From positions 3,782,674-3,846,673 of the forward strand of contig NW_004457729.1 in assembly GCF_000203815.1 (NCBI RefSeq): a DNA stretch of 64,000 bases. The letters run 5' to 3'. This document shows, piece by piece, positions 1,810-53,881 of the stretch. The notes under the pieces were generated by a model that did no database searches, was not told where the DNA came from, and saw only the letters and a program-made list of their open reading frames with translations. This DNA comes from Cavenderia fasciculata (taxonomy: Eukaryota; Evosea; Eumycetozoa; Acytosteliales; Cavenderiaceae). Positions within the stretch are counted from its first letter, which is position 1, and each line of letters begins with the position of its first letter. The translations under genes and the position numbers were made by a program.

Positions 1810-3735
1810 ATGAAGGAAGAACATGTAAAGGTGTTGGTTGTAGGATCGGGTATTGTCGGCTTGACAACTTCATTATTACTTCATCAACAACAACAACAAG
1901 AAAAAGAAAAAGATAGTGATGATATCGAGTCATCATCAACATCTTCATCATCATTGTCAACATCATCATCGATTACATTTAAAGTAATAGAGAAACATTC
2001 AACATTATGTATGCACCCAAGATCACGTGGATTTAATACTAGGTCAATGGAGATTATTCGATCGTTGGGATTGGAGAGCAAGGTAAAAGAGACGGTTGAC
2101 CAGTCGGTCATACAGAGTACTGGTATCTACTCGGGTCGTACGCTTGTGCAAGCGATTGGAAGAAAGTATAGGTGGTTGAGAAACCCACAGTTACTTGGTG
2201 GATTGGCCGTGTTGGTGTCGATCTTTGGTGCCATCTACTGGGTGCTGCCTGGTGGATGGTTTAGCATATTCATGATTGCATTGGTGTATGTATTGATGCA
2301 AGTGGCTAAAAAGTGGAAACGGTATATCAAAGAGAGTAGTACCTCTTCATTTACTCGTATTACCCAAGATATTATCGAACCTCTATTATACGAGTCTGCA
2401 AAGTCACGTGGCATAGATATAGAATTTAATCAAGAAATGTTAGAGTTGACAAAGATGGATGACAGTGACAGAGATGATAATACAAAGGGTCGGTACAGAG
2501 TATTGGTCAAGGATAGAGTGACGGGTGATGAAAAGGTTATTTGGACTGATTATGTAATTGGATGTGACGGTTCAAAGAGTTTGGTGAGAGAGCAGGTTGG
2601 GATAGGGTTCCACGGAGTCGGAGAGATGACCCAACAACTCAACATTTACTTTCAATCAAAAGCGATGGTTCCGTTGGTGTCGTCGAACCCGCTGTCCATG
2701 TGCTTGGTCGAGAATGACAAGCTGCGTGGGCTATTTGCGTCGGTGAATAGTCGCGATCTTTGGGTGTTGCACGTGTCAATGGGTCGCAACGAGACAGCAA
2801 AGGATTATCCAAAGGAGCGGTGTGTAGAGTTGGTGCGGGCAGCCGTTGGTATCGACACGCTTGTCGTCGACGAGATTAAAGGCGCCATGCCGTGGTGGTC
2901 GACGGTCCGCCTGGCAACAAGATACGGCACACCTGATCGACACGTGTTTTTGGCAGGTGACGCTGCCCATGTCTTTCCTCCATGGGGAGGGTTTGGAGCC
3001 AACGCCGGTATCGCCGACGCACACAACCTTGTCTGGAAGTTGGTGCATGTCATCAATGGATGGAGCGGCGAGGAACTACTAGACACTTATGAGACGGAGC
3101 GACGACCAATTGCACAACGTGCAGCGTCCATCTCTGCCGCCATGAATGACGAGCGTGGATTAATGCGACTCAACACCATCTCAATCATCCCATCCTTCCT
3201 CCAACTCATTCCCTACATGACAGTTGGATACGGATACAATTCAAGTATTATCATTGGAGATGATGACGGGTCATCATTACCTACCCCCAAATCATATGAT
3301 CTATGTGGTCGACCTGGTACTCGTATCCCACACAAATGGATCGATGAAATAGATGAAGAAAAAGTAAAAGAATATGAAGAGGATGGAGAAGAGTTAATTG
3401 AACCAAAATCAACATTGGATTGGGTCGACCCATGCACATACACATTAATAACATTTGGAGAGGATAAAAAGGGGAATAGTTGGGACCAAGTTTTCAAAAA
3501 AGCATTAAAAGAAGAAAATCCTTCCCATTTTAAACGACCAATCAATCATATCAACTACACCAAAGAGACACAATACTTGTTAATTGGTTTAGATTGGAAA
3601 AAAGATTTTGGTTTGGATTATGGCAATGCATTACTTGTCAGACCTGATGGTTTCATTGCATGGAGATCATCTTCAAAAGATCCAATCACCACTGAATTTG
3701 CATCATCCTTGTTATCCATTTTACATTATAAATAA
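1810..3735 (+). CDS. FAD-dependent aromatic-type monooxygenase with membrane hairpin
   Basis: Single-exon gene of 641 residues. It belongs to the FAD_binding_3 family (PheA/TfdB/UbiH-like hydroxylases), which use FAD and NAD(P)H to hydroxylate aromatic or polyketide-like substrates. Visible motifs are the N-terminal dinucleotide fold GSGIVGL (about residues 12-18), the DG motif in VIGCDGSKSLVRE, and the late GD motif FLAGDAAHVFPPWGG that binds the FAD ribityl chain. Two things are odd. A Q/S/D-rich low-complexity segment (about 25-54) sits between the first strand and helix and the EKH segment. A very hydrophobic stretch (about 128-166, broken by LPGGW) looks like a membrane hairpin that soluble members lack. 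It opens at ATG 1810, preceded by AT-rich DNA. The substrate is unknown. The core is GC-rich and both ends AT-rich, as in other genes here. Confidence 0.9.
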   Translation: MKEEHVKVLVVGSGIVGLTTSLLLHQQQQQEKEKDSDDIESSSTSSSSLSTSSSITFKVIEKHSTLCMHPRSRGFNTRSMEIIRSLGLESKVKETVDQSVIQSTGIYSGRTLVQAIGRKYRWLRNPQLLGGLAVLVSIFGAIYWVLPGGWFSIFMIALVYVLMQVAKKWKRYIKESSTSSFTRITQDIIEPLLYESAKSRGIDIEFNQEMLELTKMDDSDRDDNTKGRYRVLVKDRVTGDEKVIWTDYVIGCDGSKSLVREQVGIGFHGVGEMTQQLNIYFQSKAMVPLVSSNPLSMCLVENDKLRGLFASVNSRDLWVLHVSMGRNETAKDYPKERCVELVRAAVGIDTLVVDEIKGAMPWWSTVRLATRYGTPDRHVFLAGDAAHVFPPWGGFGANAGIADAHNLVWKLVHVINGWSGEELLDTYETERRPIAQRAASISAAMNDERGLMRLNTISIIPSFLQLIPYMTVGYGYNSSIIIGDDDGSSLPTPKSYDLCGRPGTRIPHKWIDEIDEEKVKEYEEDGEELIEPKSTLDWVDPCTYTLITFGEDKKGNSWDQVFKKALKEENPSHFKRPINHINYTKETQYLLIGLDWKKDFGLDYGNALLVRPDGFIAWRSSSKDPITTEFASSLLSILHYK

Positions 3736-15192: not shown

Positions 15193-18100
15193 TTAAAAAT
15201 CATTTTGTTTCATTTCTTCGGAATTGGGTTCATCGGTATCAGTTCTTGTCTTCCACATGAATACAACACCATGACGAAGAGATATTTTGAAAAATGCTTT
15301 TCTTCTAAGTGCAAAGACTGCAATCAATATTGCTGAAGCTCCAACCAAACTAACTACAACTGAAACTGAAATAATAAGAATATCATTTGATGATGATTTA
15401 CACATTCCATCTTCTTGAATTAATATCTAAATAAATAAATAAAATTAAAATATTAATATTAATATTCTCTTTTCTTTTTTTTTTGTTTTTTGTTTTGATA
15501 TTTACAGAAAAATCAGGATCTAAAATACATTGATTTGGACAATAAGGTAAACCAATGCCAACATAAATATATGCTTCAGTTTGATTAATGACACGAGTTC
15601 TTGAAAAGGTACTTCTACCATCAGACAAGACACGATCGATGAATCTGGCATAGAGTACCTTTCCATCTCTCATGATGGTTATGTATTTGATAGTACTTTC
15701 TACCTGGTTGGCTACAATCTCTCCGCTACACTTGGAATCGGTCAGCGAGTAGGATTGGAGCATAATCTCGATACTGTTTGTTGACTTTAGGTATGGCCAT
15801 TGGTTGACGGTCGCCGTCATCTTGAGTGACCCTATATCCATTTCCAAAGGGACACCGGCAAATTCAAAACTGTCTTGTTGGGTGTACTCACGAATCGAGT
15901 AAGACACATTGGTAGAGACAGGGTTCAATCCGTCAAATTGATCGTAGAAATAGGTCCATTGTTTGTAGACGGGTTCGACCGAGCTGCTAAGCGTCCAGTT
16001 TGAAAAGGCAAACTCGCGTACCACCTTGTCGTCAATATCAACCTCTCGGATCCCGGCCACCCTGAATCCAAACTTGATCCCCTCTGACTCTATCTCTGAT
16101 CCATTGACACCGTGTGTAGAGTTGGAGGGAACGACACGGTCGCCGCAAATAGGACCAGTCCACCCGAAATAACACGAGCATCCGCCAACCGCACACACTC
16201 CATTGTCTGAGCAATAACATTGATCGTCACCTTCATACGAGAAGATGCCGAATCGATTCATAACCAATCCAGCCACTGTCAGACGCACGTCCTTGATGCC
16301 CGACCCCGGGGCAATTCTCGAAAAGATGGTAGTCGAGTTGATAAATTCAATGGGACACGACACACCGCCCACCGACAGCGCCACCACTGTAAAGTTCTCA
16401 CCAAATTGTCCAGAGATGGTAAAAGGCCCACCGGTACGAGGTGGCGATGTGATGGCAGTGATCGTTGGAAAGTAACGGATGAATGGGTAGTTGAACGACC
16501 CCTTTTGTCCGTCTCGCACAGTTGCAGTCACCAAATAATAGTTTTCTTCCATATTGGCAGTGTCTGGCAACTTGCACCGTATCAATAGAGTTGGCACGAT
16601 CACTTCGACCTGGCAGATACGCTGTCCCACCGTGATTTGAGCCGGCATCGTCAATCCCTGACCAGAAACCAAAAATACGTAGCCGTTGATGTCCGAGTCG
16701 AAATAAGTCGTTATAGAGTCAATCTTTGGTGGCAACAAACTAATCTGTACGGTCAAACTAGCATTGTTTAGGTCTAAAAAGTATACCTTTAAACTACCAC
16801 TATTAGTTGCATTGACCATTGCAGGAACACTTGATGAAATTTGGAATCTTTTGTTTGGTATCTTGAATTGGACGGCAGCATAGTTGACAAAGAGTGCTGG
16901 GTCGGGTAGAATGCGGTCAGGATAAAACCCTAAATCCTCACCATTGATTTCTATGATTCCAGCACCTGCAGTATACAATGCTGGCTTTGTAATCTTTAAC
17001 GTTGTACATGGTGGTATCACTCCATTGGATGGTTGGTAGTTTGTAAAGCTACTATTTGAAAACATCCCTGCTATTCTTGTATCTCTCAAATGACACGCAA
17101 AACAAGTAGGTAAAGTTCCATTGAAAGAATTACCATCCAATTTTACATACATTGAACAATATGAATTATCAATTGCTCCAATTAATTGGTTACCCCTTAA
17201 ATCTCTATAAAAATAGAAAATAAAAACAAAAGTCAGTAACATAATTCACATTTTTGATTGATAGATTGATTGATTTTTGTTATTACATACAATGTACTAA
17301 CAGATGAAGTTGAAGGGAAAACTGGTAATACTTTGTTGATTCGGTTCCTATTCAATGACAAGAGTTGAATGGATTTTGTGAGAAAGATGGGGAAGGGAAA
17401 GAGATCAGTCAATCCACAATTCTCACAAGTATAAAACTTTAGCTGTGAATGAATGGCAGTTGGATAAACATTGTTACCAAGTCTCTCACTATTTGTAATG
17501 ACAATTGATAACAAATCTGTACAATTTGAATAATTTGGTCTTGTTAAAACTGGATTAAAATTTACATTATTAAATACTCTTTTTAAAAATATATTAAAAA
17601 TAAAAAAAGAAAAGAGTTAATAACAAATTCAAAAGTAGTTATAAACATAAAACATACAAGGCAGTTGGTCTATACCAATTTTCAAACCTTGGGTAATCTA
17701 GCATTCTTTGGGATCCAGCTACATCGTTCATTCTTCTATTAAAGAAAAAATTGTATTAATTAAGATGTTCTATCTATATATCTTCTAAATAGTAGTCAAT
17801 CACTTATTATTGTTGTTGTTGATTTGTTGTTGTAACATACACAAGAGGTAAAGCTAAAGCTCTGGGTAATTCGAAAAATGAAAATGAAGATTGTTGGAAG
17901 TTTTCACCTATATAAATAGACAAATCTGTCAAATTTGGAAAATAGGACATATTTAATATAGCACTCATGGTTCCATAACTAAAAATACAGAGAGAAATAT
18001 ATATATTAGAATTAATATTAATGATCAGATGATAATCGGGGATGACATACAATCTAGTTAATCTCATATTAGCGGTTGTTGTGTAATAAACCTCTCTAAC

Positions 18101-23714: not shown

Positions 23715-26700
23715 ATGAAAATACAACCTCTATTTGTGGTAGTATTAGGAATCATCACCTATATGATGATAGTGGTACATGGAGGCAAACCACTGCCAAC
23801 ACCCTCTGATATACACGTTGACATGACACTGTCTGCTACATCATCTGTTCTATCATACAACACAACGACAGGATGTTCAATGGCCGGTGTCGTCCTTCAA
23901 GGTGCTTTCAACTCGAATTTCAGTATTACAACTGCCAAAACTTTCCAACCTTCTCCAGTAAGTAAATTATACAACATTCCATTTCTATGATTTATTATTA
24001 TTTACATTTATTTTATTTTAGGTAGCAGGAGGTATGCCAACAGGAGTTTGTCCATCACATCTTGAATACAATGAAAACAGTTGTTGTGATCAAGAACAAT
24101 TTGGTATTTTGAGTGCACAAATGCAAACTGCCAATACTATTTTTGGAAGATGTCCAGCCTGTATGAACAATCTTTGGGATTTGTGGTGTGCTAGTGGATG
24201 TTCACCCTACCAATCACAATTTATGATTGTTGACAAGACAGCCCCCTACATGTACAACCATGTCAACTATACCAAGGTAGCATTTGCCACCTACATTCTC
24301 GACCCAGTCTATGCCGAAGGTATCTACAACTCGTGTCGTGATGTCATTGCCAATGGCAACGTGCCATTTGCCGCACAGTATCCATCGTACCAAACCTTTT
24401 TCAATGACTTTTTCGGAGGCAATAACCCACAATTTGGCATCAACTTTATATTCGATCCCGTCAATGGCTACAGTTCCAACGTTGCCGTTCAAAATTGTTC
24501 CGAGAGTTGTTCTTGTACCAGTTGTCGTGACCTCTGTTCATTCCCTGGTGAATATGGTGATTTTAGAATGATCAATGAATCAATCATTCCAAATACTTAT
24601 TTATTTGATAAACAGTAAGACTGAAACAAAAGAAAAGAAAAAAAAACAAACATATATATATATATATATATATATTAATTCTAATTAATCTACTTTTATT
24701 TTCCATTTTTAGAGTACCAATATTATCAGTTTGGTTATTATTTGGATATTATTTATTCTTGTTGACATTATTCACAACGATTTCGATTTGGTTGATCAGA
24801 AAGATATTACAGAGAAAGAGACGGTATGTGGCTATTGGATTGGTGTTGATTGTTTTCATTTACATTTCGGCTATTTTCTTGCCCGTCATTTCTGGCATCG
24901 TGCCTACGTCATCGGATACTTGTAATTATCAAATGCCACATGGCCAAGATTGGGCATGTGCATTGGTCATTACATCATTCTCGTATTCGTTGGCCGTACT
25001 TGGTTTGATGGCCTTGTCATCGACCGTGCTCTACTTGAAATACCGCTCCGAGCAACAACGCATCCACTACCAAAACCAACTCAACAATCAGATCCCTTCC
25101 AATGGGTCGATCTACTCGTCACGTCTCGGCGACAAAAAGGGTGGATACCCCAGCCCATTGTTGACGTCGCAAGAGTCGCGTTTCAAGGATATTGGCATGG
25201 ACGACCCATCACTTGTGCAAAAGGCATTCTTTTTGCTCGGTCGTCTCGTGTCTAGATACCCGCTCGTCACCATTGCAGCCTGTCTGGTGTTTACCGGTGT
25301 CTGCTCGATTGGTATCCGCTTTCTTGTCATCGAAGAGGATCCCGTCAAACTGTGGGTCAGTCCCACCAGCAGATCAGCCGTTGAAAAGGAGTACTTTGAC
25401 AGCAACTTTGGTGCATTCTATCGTATTGAACAACTCATCCTTACACCGGTCGACCCCAACGTCACGATTGTCGGTAACAACCAGACCCTGATTGCCGAGC
25501 TTGCGCGACTCGAGATCCAACTCATGAACCTGTCGGCAGTCTATGAAAACGAGACATTAGTGTTGAGCGACCTCTGCTTCCAACCCACTCACAGAGGTTG
25601 TCTCGTCGAGTCAATCACTGGTATCTGGCAGCGTAACCTCGCGTTGATTGGACAGTCTTCGTCCGCCTTCCAGACACAGCTCAAGGGCTGTCTTGGCAAC
25701 CCGCTCAACACCAACTGTATGGACGCTGTAGGTACGCCCGTCAACCCGTCGGTCGTGCTTGGTGGATGGTCTGGTTTGCCTGCCGACGCAGTCAACGCAT
25801 CTGCCTTTGTCACAACCTTCCTCCTCAAGAACCCACCCGAGTTGCTCAACCAGGCCATGGCATGGGAGCAGGTCTGGCTCGACACGGTCCAAGCATACAA
25901 CCGCAACAGCAGCCGTCTTCTCAACGCTGCCTACTCGGCCGAGCGTTCCGTCCAAGACGAACTTTCCCGTGAGAGTGCTGCCGATATTTCAACCATCGTC
26001 ATCTCTTACTCTGTCATGTTTGTCTATGTCTCTATGGCACTTGGCCGTTTCTACCCACGTCCACAACGTTTCCTATCTTATATTATCAACTCTAGATTCT
26101 CTTTGGGTCTCTCTGGTATCTTGGTAGTCGCATCGTCTATCTGTATCGCGGTTGGTCTCTGTTCATTTGGCGGTATCAAGGCAACACTCATCATTTCCGA
26201 GGTCATCCCATTCCTCGTGTTGGCAATTGGTGTCGACAATATCTTTATCCTCGTCAACACGTTTGAGAATCTCTATGTCACTGCCTACGACAGCAATACC
26301 CGGTCGTCTGCCAAACCACCCATTGAATTGACCCTCGCCCGTGCCATGGCCCGTGTCGGTCCCTCCATGGCCCTCGCCTCTCTCTCTGAATCACTCGCCT
26401 TCCTCCTTGGAACCATCACCAAGATGCCTGCCGTCGTCGCATTCTCTGCCTACGCGTCCGTCGCCATTTTATTCGACTTTTTGCTCCAAATCACAGCCTT
26501 TGCCGCATTGCTCGTGCTCGATACCAAGAGATCAGAGTCTCGTCGTATCGACTGTATCCCATGTGTGTCGTTGGATGATGGAGACAATTCCGACGACGAC
26601 GAACCCGAAGTCAACGAGGAAAAGATGCCATTGGCCGCACACGAAGACTACATGTCGACCAACTCATCCTACAACCCCGTCTACAAGAAAAAGGATAGTC

Positions 26701-28097
26701 TTTTAAAGGTCGCCTTTAAAAAGTATTATGCTCCCTTTGTCATGCACCCCATTGTCAAGATTGTCGCCGTCGTCGTCTTTTTGGGCGCCTTCCTCTTGGC
26801 CATCACCCTATCATTTGACCTCCAACTTGGACTTGACCAACGTGTCGCTCTGCCAGGTGACAGCTACCTCCAAGCCTACTTCAGCGAGATGGACGAGTAT
26901 TTAGAGGTCGGACCACCATTCTATATCGTCATTAAGGGTGCCTACAACTACACAGACTTTAACTCACAGAACCTACTCTGTACCATCCAAAATTGTACCG
27001 ACACGTCTGTTGTCAACGTCTACAACAACGCACCGTTTGTGCATCCAGGTGTCAGCTCGTGGCTCGACGATTACATGTCGTGGGCTGCCAACCCATCGTG
27101 CTGCGGTGTCATGCCAGACGGGTCTTCGTGTATCCCCGGTGAGTCGACCAACTGCACCGGCTGCTTTACACTCACCAACGAGGACCGTCCCAACCCACAA
27201 CAATTTGTAAAGTTCCTCCCCACCTTTTTCAACTTTTCAGTCACTCCCGGTGGTTTGTGTCCTGTCACTGGTCTCGCCTATGCATCCGATCTCAATATCC
27301 AAAACGGTTCAACCATCATTGCATCACGTTTCGATGGCTACCATTCCACACTCCGCACACAAAACGATTTTATCAATGCCCTCAAGGCTGCCTATTATTT
27401 GGCCGATCATTTTAGCGATGAATTCTCCATCTTTGTCTACTCTGTCTTTTATGTCTACTTTGAGCAGTATCTTACCATTCAGAGTATCGCTGTCATGGCT
27501 ATTGGTCTCGCTCTTGCCGGTGTCCTAGTCGTCTGTCTCATTCTCCTTGCCAACCCCGTCATCTCACTCCTTGTCGTGCTCTGCGTCGCCATGGTGTCGG
27601 TCGATCTTCTCGGTGTCATGTATCTCTGGAATGTCAACCTCAATGCCGTCTCGGTCGTCAATGTCGTCATGGCCATTGGTATCTCTATTGAATTCTGTGT
27701 CCACGTTGCTCACGCCTTTATCCGTGCCCCCGACACCATGGACAAGTCTGAAAAGGCCAAATACGCCCTCACCGAAGTTGGTAGTTCCATCGTCAGTGGT
27801 ATTTTCATCACTAAATTATTAGGTGTTGTAGTTTTAGGTTTTTCAAAGTAAATATAAACAAAATAGTAGACATTATTGAATGCGTGATGTGATGAATGAT
27901 TATTAATATTTTCTATTTCTATTACTAGTTCTGAAATCTTTAGAGTATATTATTTCCGTATGTATATTTCGATTGTTATACTCGGTGCATTACATGGATT
28001 AGTTTTATTGCCAGTTTTACTTAGTTTCTTTGGATCTGATAAATTCAACTTTTCAAAATGGTGTAAAAAGAATAATCAAGATTCATTGGATGATTAA
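23715..28097 (+). CDS. npc1: Niemann-Pick C1 (NPC1) sterol transporter
   Basis: Exons 23715-23957, 24022-24614, 24713-27847 and 27929-28097 give 1379 residues with consistent phases. NPC1 is a multi-pass protein of late endosomes that takes sterol from NPC2 and passes it to the limiting membrane. A signal peptide (1-23) leads into the Cys-rich sterol-binding N-terminal domain (CPACMNNLWDLWCASGCSPYQSQF). A first membrane helix, the middle luminal domain and a sterol-sensing domain (about 738-900, with SEVIPFLVLAIGVDNIFILV) follow. After a second luminal domain with paired Cys, a final block of helices runs through exon 4 (SEIFRVYYFRMY...LPVLLSFFG). It ends in LDD rather than a recognisable dileucine signal. 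The first 80 or so residues match the family poorly. Exon 3 has a very GC-rich centre and AT-rich edges. Confidence 0.93.
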
Positions 28098-34874: not shown

Positions 34875-36789
34875 ATGGGATCTGCAACATCTGAAGATTT
34901 TACTGAAGTAGATGAATGCAATGTTTTTGTTAAATATCTACCATGCGAATATACTGAAAAGGGTAAGTAATGCAAAAACCGATCGACATGGCAACTCAAT
35001 GACATCCATCTACTCTGAACTAATCGAGCCCCGATTTCTTTTTTTTTTTTTTTTTTGTTTTTTTTTTCCCCTTTTCTCTCTTCTTTTTATTATTTAGATC
35101 TTTTCAACTTGTTTCTGCCACATGGATCGATCATCAATACCAAAGTGATGGTCAATACCAAGACTGGAAGTAGTCTTGGATATGGATTTGTCAGATTCTC
35201 TGAGCCATCCAATGCCAAGGACGCCGTTGCCAAGATGAACCGTCTCCAAATCGGCTACAAGACCTTGCTTTGCAAGCTTTCCAAGCCATCCCAAGCCCCA
35301 GTCATCAACCCATCCAACATGGTCGAAGACACTGAGCCAAGAGATCCATCGGCATCCATATACGTCCGTGTCTTGTCACCCACCATCACTGACGCACAGC
35401 TCCGTGCCGCCTTTGAACCATTTGGCGATGTCATTGAGAGCCAGGTACTCATCGACCAGGCCTCTGGCAAGTCCAAGCGTTCAGGATACGTCCGTTTTGC
35501 CAATATCACCGAGTCGACCAACGCCATCACCGTCATGAATGGTAGTTATCATTTGGGTGGTGCTCCATTGATTGTCAGATACTCTTCATCAAGTAAATCA
35601 ACCAAGCAAGCTCAACAAGCTCAACAAGCTCAACAAGCTGTCCAACAACAACAACAAGCTGTTCAACAACAACAACAATTACAACTTCAATATTATCAAC
35701 AACAAAAACATTATTCTTCATCCCAACCACTTATCATTCAACAACATGAACGCCAGACATCTCAAGTCGTTCCACCATCACCAAAACATTCACCACCACA
35801 ACAACGTCAGTATATTCTTGACCATCACCATCACCACCATGGTGGAGCTTCTTCTGCTGCCGCTCAACAAGCTCAACAACAACAACAACAACAACAACAA
35901 CAAACCCAACTTGTATATGAACCAAACCACAATCAATCACAACCAACATACGCTTATATATATGCCGCCGATCATCAAGGATATTATCCTGGTGATCATC
36001 TCACATACGCTGCCCCTTTGGGCTACCACCACCCTCACCACCCACATACCATCCACCAATATATTCCAGTGTCGGCATCGGCCGCCTACCATACTAGCTA
36101 CGACTATGGATCGTCGTCGCCATCACCTCCAGGCTCGCCCACCCACTACCCCAACGGCGCCACATACTCTACCGCCCCACCCACCTACTATATTTATTCA
36201 ACCGCCGCACCACCAACCACCTACTACACCTCAGCTAATAACAATACTAATAATACTAATAATAATCATGTTAATTTAAATTCCAGTACTAACCTTTTAA
36301 ATAATCAACATATAAATGTTTCATCCTCTTCGTCATCCATTTCATCCTCTTCATCCACCCCATCATCTCCACCATCACCCTCTATAAATTATGCCGCCTT
36401 TATTGCCTATCCCTCAAGATCAGTTTCTCCCAATCAACCAACTGACTTTGGAATCAAAAACACTCTCATTTGCACATACCGTTATGATATCGAGTTTTCT
36501 GAACTCTATGAAACTTTTTCAAGATTTGGTTCATTAAAAAGTTTAAAGGTAAATATTAAATATAATATTATTTATTTATATTTATTTTATTAACATTTCT
36601 TTTTTTCTTTTTTATTTCTAGATTAATAATAACAAATTAAACAAATTAAAATGTTTTATTACTTTTATAAATGTTGAAAATGCAGTTAATGCTCAGATGA
36701 TATTGGATCGTAGTAGAATTGGAAATCAAAATATTAGAGTTAAATTCCAATCAGACACTTTACCACAATCACATTCTACCACCTTTTAA
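34875..36789 (+). CDS. Three-RRM RNA-binding protein (ELAV/CELF-like)
   Basis: Exons 34875-34962, 35098-36548 and 36622-36789 give 568 residues. The first RRM spans exons 1-2 (RNP2 NVFVKYLP, RNP1 LGYGFVRF). RRM2 follows directly (SIYVRVLS, RSGYVRFA). A long spacer of Gln, His, Pro/Tyr, Asn and Ser runs then leads to RRM3 (about 460-555), split by intron 2 and completed by exon 3. Two close RRMs, a low-complexity linker and a distant third RRM match the Hu/ELAV and CELF layout; such proteins bind U- or GU-rich RNA and control mRNA stability and translation. The Q-rich linker could drive condensates. Intron 1 contains long T runs. No localisation signal is evident. The 6.8 kb upstream without a gene suggests complex regulation, which is inference. 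Confidence 0.85.
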
Positions 36790-39362: not shown

Positions 39363-42209
39363 TTATGTATGATTGATTCTACATAAACTACAACCAAATG
39401 AATGTTCTTCACCATTTGGTGGATGGGGAACTCCACAACTGCATTTTGGCAATTGATCCTTTGGTGTCTTGACAATGGTTGTACTTTGCGAATGACAACT
39501 ATTACAGAAATGTGTTTTACCCCAACAAAAGAATACTGACATGTTACAACAAAATTTACATTTATATTCACTAGAAATGGAAATTATTAATAAGTAGTTC
39601 AAAGTTCAAAATGATCATTTGATTTGTAACATACATATATTCTTTTCCATGAGTTTTGCAATTATCAGCACCATCACAACTACATCCACCACATAATAAT
39701 TCCTCTGGTTTAAAATCTACATTATTCTCTCCACATGCTTTCTCTCCTCCAAAATATGGTTTCTAAAAAAATAAATTAAAAAGGTTAGAAATAATGATCT
39801 TTTTTTCTTTTTCTAATACTATAGTCATACTTTGCATTTAAAACAAGGGAAAAATGATAGTCTATCCATAACATAACCCTCTTCATCATTGTACCACCTA
39901 CAACTTGGATCTTTCAAGTTGACACCTTTTTCAGGACCTTGTGATTTTAGTCTTTGTAGACCCTTTTCCTTGATGACATTGTATAGATCCATTATTTCGG
40001 TCAGTTCCTTTTTCAGAGCTGGATGTTTAATGTATTTCGGACAAATTGCACACTTCATAAAACCAAATGATATTCTTGAACTATTCCATTTACCTGCCAA
40101 CTTTTTCTTGCAACATTCCAAATGTACAATATGTCCACACTCTAATTGAATACATGGACTACTACCCAATTCTTCAACCCAACAAATATTACAATAATCT
40201 GATGATTTCTAAAAATTAAATAAATAAATAAGTAATCCAATTTTCTTTTCCGATTCTTTTTTGTTTTCTTTTCTTACTTGAGTTTGATTTGCATATGGAC
40301 AATCATCAACTAGACATGGTGGACATTTAGTTTCACCAGAGATACCACAGCAATTATGACCACATGCCAACTTCTTTTTACATGATAGCATGTACTTTTG
40401 CATGCATTCTGGTTGATTACAACATTGATTAGAGAGTGTAGAACAATTACTTGGTTTCAAAGACTGTAGACAATATCTACAATGTTTAGAGGTAGAATAA
40501 TTTTTAAATTGGTCACATGTATACCCAAGATGATATGGTTTTTCAAAACACTCTGAACAAAATACAGTTGTACATTGTAAACATCTAAATCTATATAATT
40601 TCTTATGTTCAATTGCTTGTCTACTTAATTCATTTCCATTTTGATCCTAACAAAATAAAATAAATAAATAAATAAATAAATATATATATATATTTTTGTC
40701 TTTTTGTTTTTTTATAGACTTACATATTCTTTTGCATTATTGTCTTGTGGCGTATTTTGATTATGTTGTAACTTTTCCATTAAAACACTACAATTTGGAC
40801 ATTTGAAAAAGGAATCTTTGTTTGTTGAAATGACCTCATCCAATGATGCACTATCATATTTGGCATATTCTTGATCACTCAACACTTGTTTAATATCTGG
40901 ACTTGATAATGATGCCTTGCAACTCTTGCATTTGATCATTGAAACCTTTTTCATTTCAATCTTTTTCATAATTGATTGATGTAAACATTCTTTACAATAA
41001 ATATGTCCGCATTGCTAAAAATAAATAAATATTTAATATAGATCTATATAAATATATTAATATTATATTATTATTTTTTGTGATATTTACATCTAAAAAT
41101 ATTAAACTTTCAACAGCCAATTGTTTTTGACATTTGACACATTTTGTTTCTAGATCATTGTTGGTTTGTTGTTGTTGTCTTGATTTTTCATGTTCCTCTC
41201 TTTCATTTTCCAACAATTCAAGTACCAATCGTCTATTGTTTTCCTCTTCTTCAACCAATTGAGCACGTCGTTCATCTTCAATTAGTTTACGTGCAAATTG
41301 TAATGATTTGAATTCTTCATCCTCCTCGATATAATAATTATGATGATCTTCCAAATCATAAAAACTATGATTACTTGCATTCATTTCTTGATTAAATGGG
41401 TTTCCATTATTTGTAGAAGAAGTTGAAGTAGTTGATGTAGTTGAAGTTGAAAAAGGATTGAATGGTGGAATACCATTAATATTATTATTATTAAATGGAT
41501 TATTACCACTACCATTATTGTTATTATTATTATTATTATTATTAACAAATGATGATTCTAAACTATTTTTTGTTGTTTGAGTTGGTGTTGAATTATTACT
41601 AGTACTTATTCCATTACTACTGTTATTAGTAGTAGTATTGTTAGTGTTAATGTTGTTGTTGTTGGAACTATGAATATTTAATAAATCTTGTTTAAATAAA
41701 TCCTCTAATAGCTTCTTTGGATTCATTACATTCTCTCCGATACCTCTAATATATTGCCCAAAAAATCCTTGATTGTTGTTTGGTGGAGTAGATGATGCCG
41801 AAGTAGACGTGGATGTTGTCGATGATGACGATGTAGTATTATTTGCACTAGTATAATTTGTTAAATGGTTAGGGTTATTACTTTGATTAGTACGATGTAA
41901 CATTTGAAAAGGTGATGATAGTGTAGCTGCAGCTGCAGCAGTTGTAGTATTGGTAGTTGATGTCGATTGATTGTCTCTTTGTTGTTCATACATAATAGAA
42001 TCGCCTTCTTCGTCGTCATCATCAACATCTATGTGTCGTGACGCAGAATAAGACATGGGAGTGACCGTCTCTTTCGGAATATGCGAGGTGGTAGTGGTGG
42101 TCATTACCTCATCCTCTTTAAAGCAAGCATTGAAATGGTCACCAAACACATTAACCTCAAACGCCAATGCACAGCCCGGGCACTGTATTTGATCAACACT
42201 TGGATTCAT
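39363..42209 (-). CDS. Hybrid ubiquitin ligase: UBZ-like finger, RING-IBR, MYCBP2-type RCR module
   Basis: Six exons (minus): 41091-42209, 40724-41014, 40278-40646, 39831-40208, 39635-39762 and 39363-39570, giving 830 residues. The N-terminus has a C-x2-C-x11-H-x3-C finger (Cys10-Cys29) like UBZ ubiquitin-binding fingers. About 270 low-complexity residues follow. Next come a RING1-like motif (C357, C360, C375, H377, C380, C383, C402, C405) and an IBR-like motif (FKCPNC to GYTC) as in RBR ligases, then an extra Cys cluster. The end is a RING (CNICWVEE, C599) plus a tandem-cysteine domain that closely matches the RCR catalytic end of human MYCBP2, which esterifies ubiquitin onto Thr through two relaying cysteines. 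The equivalents here are Cys729 and Cys777, with Glu740 and His788. MYCBP2's own giant N-terminal region is absent. Confidence 0.85.
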
Positions 42210-50176: not shown

Positions 50177-53100
50177 ATGTCAAAAAGTATACAATCATTC
50201 ATCATGATTGTACTACCATTGATGGTTGTTACACTACTTTCAATGTTTGGTGGTGTCAATGCTATAGCACAACCCCCACTACTTCCTAATCAATGTATGT
50301 ATTATTATTATTATGATCATTACTATCGGGATTGATTGATCATTTACTAATGGATTTGTCTTGTTTTCTTTAAAAAGTGCCAAAGGTTCAATATTTGGTT
50401 CAACTATTTCAATTACAGAGTCTGTATCCAGACACGGCATCATATTGTCAAGACCCACCACTAGGCCCACACTTTATATGTGTTCCTACCAATATAACAC
50501 AACAATCGATTATGACTCAGATAAATCTTACTGGTACAGGTGTCGAAGTACTCCCATCAAATCTAATTACAAATCAAGATTTTGGTATACTCTTTTCATT
50601 GTTTGTTATCAATTAACTAATCATTCAATCCTTAAACAACCCTCTCTAATTTAATTACCATTTCCAATTTCCCTATTCTACTATAAAACAGATCTTTAAA
50701 AGATGTGATTGTTTCAGATGTATTTTTTAGAGGTGTTTTAAATGCAACTACTGAATTGTATGTAATATTAAATATTAAACTATTAAATAATATTAAATAA
50801 TAATGTTGATATTAATATAGTTTTTTTTTTATACTCTTGATAGTACATGTATAAATTGTAATATTCAATCATTTCCACCACTTAGTAATTCTATGACGAC
50901 TATATTATCCTATTTAAAGTTGGTTGATAATCCTATATCGGGGCCTATCAATATAACAAATAGTCTTTTAGGAAAAATCATCATCTATTCAACCAACACT
51001 TCACATATACGAGACACTAATTTTATTCTTGAAAATACAAACACTGCTTTAAAATATTTGTAAGTATATATATATAAGAAAGAACAATATAATATAATAT
51101 TGATATATCAAATTAATGTGTATTAATACATTATTATCTTTTTATATTCTATAGAGAGATTCAAACCAATACCATTGGTTTTTCAATATCACAAGTTCCA
51201 AATCTTTTATTTTTGTTTGTATCATTCATTCCCATTCCCATTCCATCCATCCATCCATCTTATTTATTTATTTATTTATTTAATTTTTAGGACTATTTAT
51301 TTTGGACCAAATTTTGATATTGACACAATTGATGAAAATTTTAAATATATTGGACATGATCTTAACTTGATGTATGTTGAAGGATTAGAAATATTAATAT
51401 TAATCCCCTTCCCCTATTATTTATTTTATATTATATTAATATATTTATTTAAATTAGTGTATTTAAAGATTTATTTCCAAATCCAATGAAAACCTATTTA
51501 TTCCCAAATATAAATTTAATCAATTGTACAGCCGGGCTTGAATTTTATGATATCAACTTTCAAGGTGCAAAAAATGTAGTTGATCTCTCACAATCACCAA
51601 ATCTTAGAACTTTAACCATTAAAAACTCACCACTACTTGATGATGTTGTTTATCCAGTTGGTGTTGGTAAATTATTTACTTTAATGTATGTTTAACATAT
51701 ATATTTATATTTATATAAAAAATATTCAAACTCTATATAGAATAACTATTTACTTTTATTTTTATTTTTTTTATTAGGACAATATCAAATTGTGGATTAA
51801 AAGGATACCCACAATTTGATGTTTATTTCAAGATGCCAGCAATTATATTAGCGAATAATACCATTTCACAACAACCACCGGTATTGAATGTTTTGGATGT
51901 TGTGCCAGTTTCTGATAATCCGTCGACCATTGATTTCTCACACAATCAAGCAACTGGACACTTGGACAATAGTTGGTGTTATGTTTCATCAGACGTTAGA
52001 AACAACCAATTGAGCGGACCTCTGCCAAACTGTTTTATATGTCATGCAATAAGGGACCCATATATAGCAGCGTCGCTTGAAAACAACCAATTCTCAAATT
52101 GGCCCATTCAAACTGGTCAGAATACAACATGTGATTACCGTGTCATACAACCAATCAATTATATGGAGGGGTCACTCTTTTTGACGCTGTTGGTTGTCAA
52201 TGGAGGATGGAGCCCTTATTTCGAGTCATCGTATTGTCGTTTGTTGTCGTCGCAAATACCCAACTACTCGTATTCGTGCAAGGTGAATGCCTCGATTGCT
52301 AGTCAAATCATGGCACAGGGATACTTGCCCGTGACATTCCCCGACACGCAACAAACTGTAAATATGGCAATCAAGATTGTTCCACCGACTATTGAAAAGG
52401 TTAATCAGTTTGTGTATGGAGGTAGTCAGGTACAAGGGTACGGGTTTATCATCTCGGGCAACGGGTTTTACAATACTCTCAACCTGTCGATCAAGATTGG
52501 CGGCAAACCATGTACCCCGGCAGAACTGGGATTGACCTATGTCACGTGTATAGTGTCACAGCCACTCGACGAAGGCATCAATTTGCTCGTCATGTCATTC
52601 CGTCAATACACCATTACATATGACTTGCGATTTGTACGAATGTATCCGGTTGTGACGGCCGTGTCGTCGCCACCGCGTGTAGGTGGTGTGTTTACAGTGT
52701 ATGGTGTGTTTGGAACCAACCATACTGGCACCCAACTGGCACTAGACGGTGTGCCATGCACTATCACCAACATATCATCAAATATGATAGAGTCTACTAT
52801 AGGGCCGGGTAGCGGTACAAAGAATGTGACTGTATGGGTACAAGGTATTCGCGCAACCTACCGAAACATATTTGTCTACCTCGAAGACATACAAGGATGT
52901 GTTAGTAATTGCTACGGACACGGTACATGCGAGTACTCGACCAGTCTATGCTTTTGCTATGCCGGATACGCCGGCGAGTCGTGTCAGTACAAACGACCCA
53001 ATTTCAACTCGACCATCACACAGTACATCAATAATGGCACGGTCATTCAAAATGGAAACACGCAGTTTGGGTTTAGAGTGGCCGGTATACGCGAGGTCAA

Positions 53101-53881
53101 CTTTATGGGCGACCTTATTCGCGAGTGGGCCATCAACAATCAGTGGAATGTTTCGGCCAAGTACCTAGACAATATCTGGATGTACAGAGTCACCTTTCAA
53201 AATACAATGACACTCACCTACTTTGTCGAAGAGTTTCAAGAACCTGCCAACAGGACATTTGCCGATATTCCCATGTTCCTCGATAAAGGTGCTTTAAAGA
53301 TGACCGTCAATATCACCAACTGGCCGTACCTCTCATCAACCAACAATATCCAACTATTAATTGAATCGTTTTCGATGGGTAACCATAGTTGTGAAGGCAG
53401 TGAAATTGGTCGATCGATTACGACCAACTCTACAGCCAACTCGCTGCAATACATTATGATTGAAAGAAATGGAAAGACTCTTTACGGTAGATTCTTGGAT
53501 CGTGTACTATCAGACAATCGATCAACCTTTTCACAAACGCTTGTTGTCAACCAAACCACTGAAAGTCTATTCGTTGCCATTAATCTTCCCTATGGTACGG
53601 AATTGTTAATTGACCCAGATTTTAGTGTCATCCTATCTCGACCTGATGACATTGACCAAGATGAATGTTCTGCATCCAACAAAAGTGATAGACAATGGGT
53701 TATAGTATCTGTATCTGTAGTGGTATCAGTAGTTGGTGTGTCACTACTCATCATCTCGGTTGTCATTATCAAAAAGAAACTTATCATCTCTTTCCGTAAT
53801 GGATTTAATATTGTATATCGTGGTAATTCAAATGCTTCTTCAAATGAATCAAAATTAAAACCTTTAAATTCTGATCTCTAA
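50177..53881 (+). CDS. comC-like: ComC-like surface protein, second copy
   Basis: Exons are 50177-50294, 50378-about 50584 or 50604, about 50693 or 50703-50757, 50844-51059, 51155-51214, 51291-51371, 51458-51685 and 51778-53881, giving about 1030 residues. Only the exon 2/3 join is ambiguous: GTATAC to AAAG, or GTTATC to ACAG. The layout equals the gene at 15193: signal peptide, irregular leucine-rich repeats on small exons, TIG/IPT-like domains (SPPRVGGVFTVYG), an EGF-like module (CYGHGTCEYSTSLCFCYAG), the RVAGIREV membrane-proximal domain, and a single transmembrane helix (WVIVSVSVVVSVVGVSLLIISVV) with a short tail. The intron before the transmembrane segment in the first copy is absent here. 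The proteins are diverged but aligned through their length, so the pair is old. A role in cell-cell communication is inferred from ComC. Confidence 0.83.

Follow-up and report, generated by a model that had tools for sequence, protein, structure and literature searches.

HOIL-1 (RBCK1) is a complete RBR ligase, with an Rcat domain (RING2 with the catalytic cysteine). MYCBP2 is presented, in the sections of a 2022 review that deal with it, as the first example of a RING-Cys-relay (RCR) ligase: the relay runs over about 24 A, the site consists of Cys, His and Glu, and a hydrophobic pocket receives the methyl group of threonine (PMC9527308). The corresponding part of a 2026 catalogue of human E3 ligases places MYCBP2 among the atypical E3s (PMC13061254). 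HOIL-1 likewise forms ester bonds (PMC6613137).

Here we describe a gene of Cavenderia fasciculata in which elements of both systems occur in one chain. It lies in a window of 64,000 nucleotides (the whole stretch of DNA that was analysed, from contig NW_004457729.1), and its features are collected in Table 1. The RCR chemistry is of a known kind; what appears to be new is an RBR front together with an RCR tail at the place where the Rcat would be. Neither an RBR-RCR fusion nor an amoebal RCR gene was found described among the top-ranked openly licensed papers, though an earlier notice is possible.

Table 1. Features of the window gene and its relatives in the same genome (window positions unless C7 or C8 is given).
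Feature	Position	Strand	Basis
Complete gene of six exons encoding 830 aa, with stop codon	39363..42209	-	Spliced translation; intron and codon-position statistics
Exons	42209-41091, 41014-40724, 40646-40278, 40208-39831, 39762-39635, 39570-39363	-	
N-terminal C2HC finger, residues 10-29, UBZ-like spacing	42123..42182	-	By eye against UBZ4 pattern
RING1, residues 357-405, intron 1 inside	40919..41141	-	phmmer match to HOIL-1
IBR, residues 445-514, intron 2 inside	40515..40801	-	Pfam IBR on segment
Cys-rich linker, residues 526-586, common to C7 paralogue and giant C8	40299..40481	-	Alignment
RCR RING, residues 599-649	40041..40193	-	Match to MYCBP2 chains 5o6c, 6t7f
Tandem-cysteine (TC) domain, residues 695-830, interrupted by introns 4 and 5	39366..39905	-	Match to MYCBP2 chains; cysteine conservation
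C729, first relay cysteine	39733..39735	-	Cys in 4/4 aligned modules
E740	39700..39702	-	Glu in 3/4 modules, Asp in C8
C777, second relay cysteine	39525..39527	-	Cys in 4/4 modules
W778, human F4573 position	39522..39524	-	Trp in window gene and C7, Phe in C8 and human
H788, general-base position	39492..39494	-	His in 4/4 modules
S791, human F4586 position	39483..39485	-	Ser in window gene, Gln in C7, His in C8, Phe in human
RCR matches outside window gene	C7:1195922-1196744; C8:508817-509643		Six-frame search
C7 paralogue (L019), 742 aa	C7:1196193-1198446	-	C2 domain, RING1, IBR, linker, RING, TC
Giant MYCBP2-like gene C8 (L020)	C8:508817-518250	-	PHR domain and RCR tail

Other genes in the window

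Several further genes were recognized. An FAD-dependent aromatic-ring hydroxylase-like gene is found at 1810-3735 on the plus strand (FAD_binding_3, E 1.6e-70), and at 35055-36593, also plus, lies a gene for an RNA-binding protein whose RRM is matched in two stretches (RRM_1, E 6.1e-30) and which has a long region rich in Gln and His. On opposite strands there are two genes that each combine TIG with ComC supersandwich domains (15398-17242, minus; 51833-53881, plus); the ComC supersandwich domain is associated with social amoebae. The most GC-rich stretch (45-47%, against 26-43% elsewhere) is that of an NPC1-like sterol-sensing membrane protein at 24759-27851, plus strand. Rfam families were not found within the window.

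The RCR tail

Residues 592-830 match the crystal chains of the human MYCBP2 RCR with E-values of 7.3e-69 (5o6c) and 2.9e-68 (6t7f) in a phmmer search of the PDB, and 111 of the 238 aligned residues are identical (46.6%). The matches span both the RING and the tandem-cysteine zinc domain, which is the RCR build; the resemblance of the C-terminal 230 or so residues to this end of MYCBP2, proposed in an earlier note made from the sequence alone, is thereby borne out.

We aligned four modules: those of the window gene, of the C7 and C8 genes of its own genome (see below) and of human MYCBP2. Spliced translation and alignment place equivalents of both relay cysteines, the general-base histidine and the glutamate exactly where the earlier note had them, and the Trp following the second cysteine and the Ser further on, each in place of a human Phe, are likewise present. 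At a third position (human F4578, six residues past the second relay cysteine) Phe is kept in all four modules. The human residue numbers, and the phenylalanines that we take to line the pocket, are assumptions on our part. Cysteine conservation is almost complete: the human chain has 23 in its RING and TC, and 22 of these align with Cys in the window gene, C7 and C8 alike. Within the RING, Ile601 is kept in 4/4 modules, whereas the window protein reads CAIC (Ala647) against a CPCC-type CP[IL]C in the other three. Summarizing the comparison with human MYCBP2, the RING-TC order, relay cysteines, His and Glu are shared; the window protein differs in having RING1-IBR in front and in two pocket Phe that are replaced by W778 and S791, and a PHR domain was not found in it with Pfam.

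The RBR-like front and the linker

The best PDB match of RING1 is HOIL-1 (residues 311-448, E 2.9e-7, phmmer with the full-length query). When the RING1 segment is searched alone HOIL-1 is matched with an E-value of 4.4e-5, and the alignment stops where the IBR begins. Each Pfam RING model stays below its cut-off in the window protein, both at full length and on segments. Scanned by itself, the segment of residues 422-540 exceeds the Pfam threshold for IBR (28.2 bits, cut-off 24.3); in a scan of the whole protein the IBR model is not matched up to E 1. A joint profile of both compact RING1-IBR regions finds HOIL-1 (8.2e-6), followed by RNF4 (0.021) and HOIP (0.09) in the PDB. Hence the RBR-type character proposed for the front is upheld. 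For the N-terminal finger, described earlier as UBZ-like, the outcome is mixed: the spacing (C10-x2-C13-x11-H25-x3-C29) does resemble by eye the UBZ4 pattern, but recognition fails, as there is no match in Pfam and none in the PDB with an E-value limit of 10.

To search for an Rcat we built a profile from the same genome (31.0 Mb, 21 contigs): 27 genomic IBR matches led to 13 loci that were taken, and eight of these 13 carry an Rcat by Cys pattern. All eight score 40-58 bits when each is left out in turn and the profile rebuilt. On the linkers the profile gives -12 to -14 bits (window) and -9 to -10 bits (C7 paralogue). The best single stretch anywhere in the protein reaches 3.3 bits for the window and 2.8 bits for C7; among the results listed, single stretches of shuffled linkers reach up to at least 3.2 bits. 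An Rcat is thus undetected in both compact proteins with this profile, and the window protein is therefore not a complete RBR. Segment 526-586 was considered as a degenerate Rcat, given that its first Cys spacing is reminiscent of one by eye, and rejected: the profile score is below zero, and C538 is absent from both relatives (C7 and C8). Compared with HOIL-1, the window protein has an RCR tail and no detectable Rcat. Of the RBR/RCR hybrid put forward earlier, the RING1-IBR front and RCR tail in one chain remain, together with a paralogue of the same build; the complete RBR does not.

The Cys-rich linker is found at the same place in the giant C8 protein, and 20 of 78 alignment columns are invariant among the window, C7 and C8 proteins. 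Its profile gave one PDB match (E 0.32), taken as chance. Judged by this alignment the linker belongs with the RCR side, and since the giant MYCBP2-like protein shares it, the RBR/RCR junction is placed between IBR and linker, at about residues 515-526.

Related genes in the same genome

When the genome was searched in all six frames with the RCR module as query, seven matches at E up to 10 were obtained, all within three genes (the best six candidates were scored): the window gene, the compact C7 paralogue and the giant C8 gene, that is, one giant and two compact genes with an RBR front. Pattern-based scans of viral contigs and prokaryote genomes yielded no relatives, nor did tblastn against phage records.

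The C7 paralogue shares with the window gene the order RING1-IBR-linker-RING-TC and the Trp after the second relay cysteine. Unlike the window protein, it has at its N-terminus a C2 domain (E 2.3e-21), which might direct it to membranes, instead of the C2HC finger and Asn/Ser-rich region. Its IBR exceeds the Pfam cut-off at full length (38.3 bits), though a PDB search with its RING1-IBR region yielded no RBR chain within an E-value limit of 1.

The C8 gene has the same linker-RING-TC tail (43.2% identity to the window gene over the module), but differs in its PHR domain, the Phe after the second relay cysteine and an Asp for the catalytic Glu. A single open frame of 2969 aa holds both the PHR domain (E 5.1e-32 and 3e-32; the sole match over the cut-off in the genome) and the RCR RING. 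Open frame and last exon together amount to at most 3124 aa, and further exons probably lie upstream. Where the compact genes have RING1-IBR, the giant has a B-box-like Cys/His finger (by eye). This finger was tried as a remnant IBR and discarded, with 222 of 300 shuffles scoring equal or higher.

Origin of the compact form

In a tree of the four RCR modules the two compact genes group together, apart from C8 and human, in 73% of 200 bootstrap replicates. This tree is unrooted and consequently fits either order of events, an ancient compact class or a copy made within the amoebae. Module identities to the window gene are highest for human, followed by C8 and then C7 (38.0%), while C8 and human share 48.0%.

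The compact form may well have arisen by a lineage-specific fusion, in which the RING1-IBR of an RBR gene acquired a duplicated MYCBP2 tail (linker-RING-TC) in place of its Rcat. The linker common to the giant puts the junction between IBR and linker, ordinary RBR genes with an Rcat are available in the genome (the eight loci above), and the unrooted tree is compatible with it. Less easily accommodated are the identity to the own giant, which is below that to human, and the divergence of the two compact genes, which by eye have no intron position in common. Given this absence of common introns and the low identity between the window and C7 modules, any fusion would have to be old.

The reverse order, in which the compact form is ancestral and the giant MYCBP2 descended from a small ligase with an RBR front and RCR tail, appears unlikely. 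The pairing of the compact modules against the giants speaks for it, and so does the window module being nearer to human than to its own giant, an order of similarity that gives no support to a recent local copy. However, the four-sequence tree equally fits a copy made within the amoebae, the finger of the giant bears no trace of an IBR, and a giant PHR-type gene is present in the same genome, so the ancestral status suggested earlier for the compact form is not sustained.

Proposed mechanism

The window protein is probably a one-chain ubiquitin ligase with a MYCBP2-type RING-Cys-relay engine. On the basis of residue conservation, its RCR RING (599-649) would dock E2~ubiquitin, after which ubiquitin would pass to C729 by transthiolation and be relayed to C777. 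H788 and E740 would then activate a hydroxyl acceptor, giving an ester product. The RCR RING is the likelier E2 site, because Ile601 is kept there whereas RING1 carries Lys359 ahead of its second Cys, which may mean weaker E2 binding. Some caution is due for the RCR RING as well, as Ala647 (Pro in the other three modules) may weaken E2 binding there too. RING1-IBR, with no detectable Rcat to complete an RBR ligase, would have an accessory role in binding ubiquitin, E2 or substrate; ubiquitin binding would have a parallel in RBR ligases. The C2HC finger may contribute to ubiquitin binding too. An AlphaFold model of exon 3 alone had a mean pLDDT of 36.2 and was not used.

The acceptor class is uncertain, since two of the three human pocket Phe positions are changed. 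The altered pocket (W778, S791) suggests a preferred acceptor unlike the threonine of MYCBP2. Together with Ala647, these changes might also be taken to indicate that the tail has lost its relay and works as a plain RING ligase or is directed to lysine. This seems quite improbable, given that the relay cysteines, His and Glu are all kept in both compact genes despite their low module identity.

Integrity of the gene model

The six exons splice without a frame break. All five introns are GT...AG, 64-77 bases long and of low GC content (8-23%), against 32.5% GC in the coding sequence (38/39/21% by codon position). The earlier concern that the exons might belong to two separate transcripts is answered by the C7 paralogue, in which one exon (L019 3857-2694) runs from just upstream of the IBR into the TC domain and so holds IBR, linker, RING and most of the TC. 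Because the paralogue has this whole stretch in a single exon, the fusion of an RBR-like front and an RCR tail is judged from these sequences to be genuine and no splicing artefact; an artefact of the gene model was rejected on its architecture and on the intron and codon statistics of the window gene. That two genes (exons 1-3 and exons 4-6) were wrongly joined is very improbable: although the joining here is read from genomic sequence, exon 4 lacks a Met upstream of residue 644, already inside the RCR RING, intron 3 is a GT...AG intron of 69 bases in phase, and the paralogue's exon crosses the same boundary.

Conclusions

It might tentatively be argued that the compact genes represent an old, distinct class of relay ligases, in which the RBR front controls or feeds the RCR tail and the Trp/Ser pocket is tuned to a hydroxyl other than that of threonine, possibly on non-protein targets; on this view the RCR family would be a wider one, with giant MYCBP2 as a single specialised branch. 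A compact natural RCR ligase would be easier to express as a whole protein, and the compact genes are a natural experiment on which residues of the pocket decide the preference for threonine. A non-animal genome that carries two compact RCR genes beside a giant one shows that this module need not be part of the giant PHR body, and the window gene suggests that a relay tail can occupy the place of the Rcat in an RBR ligase.
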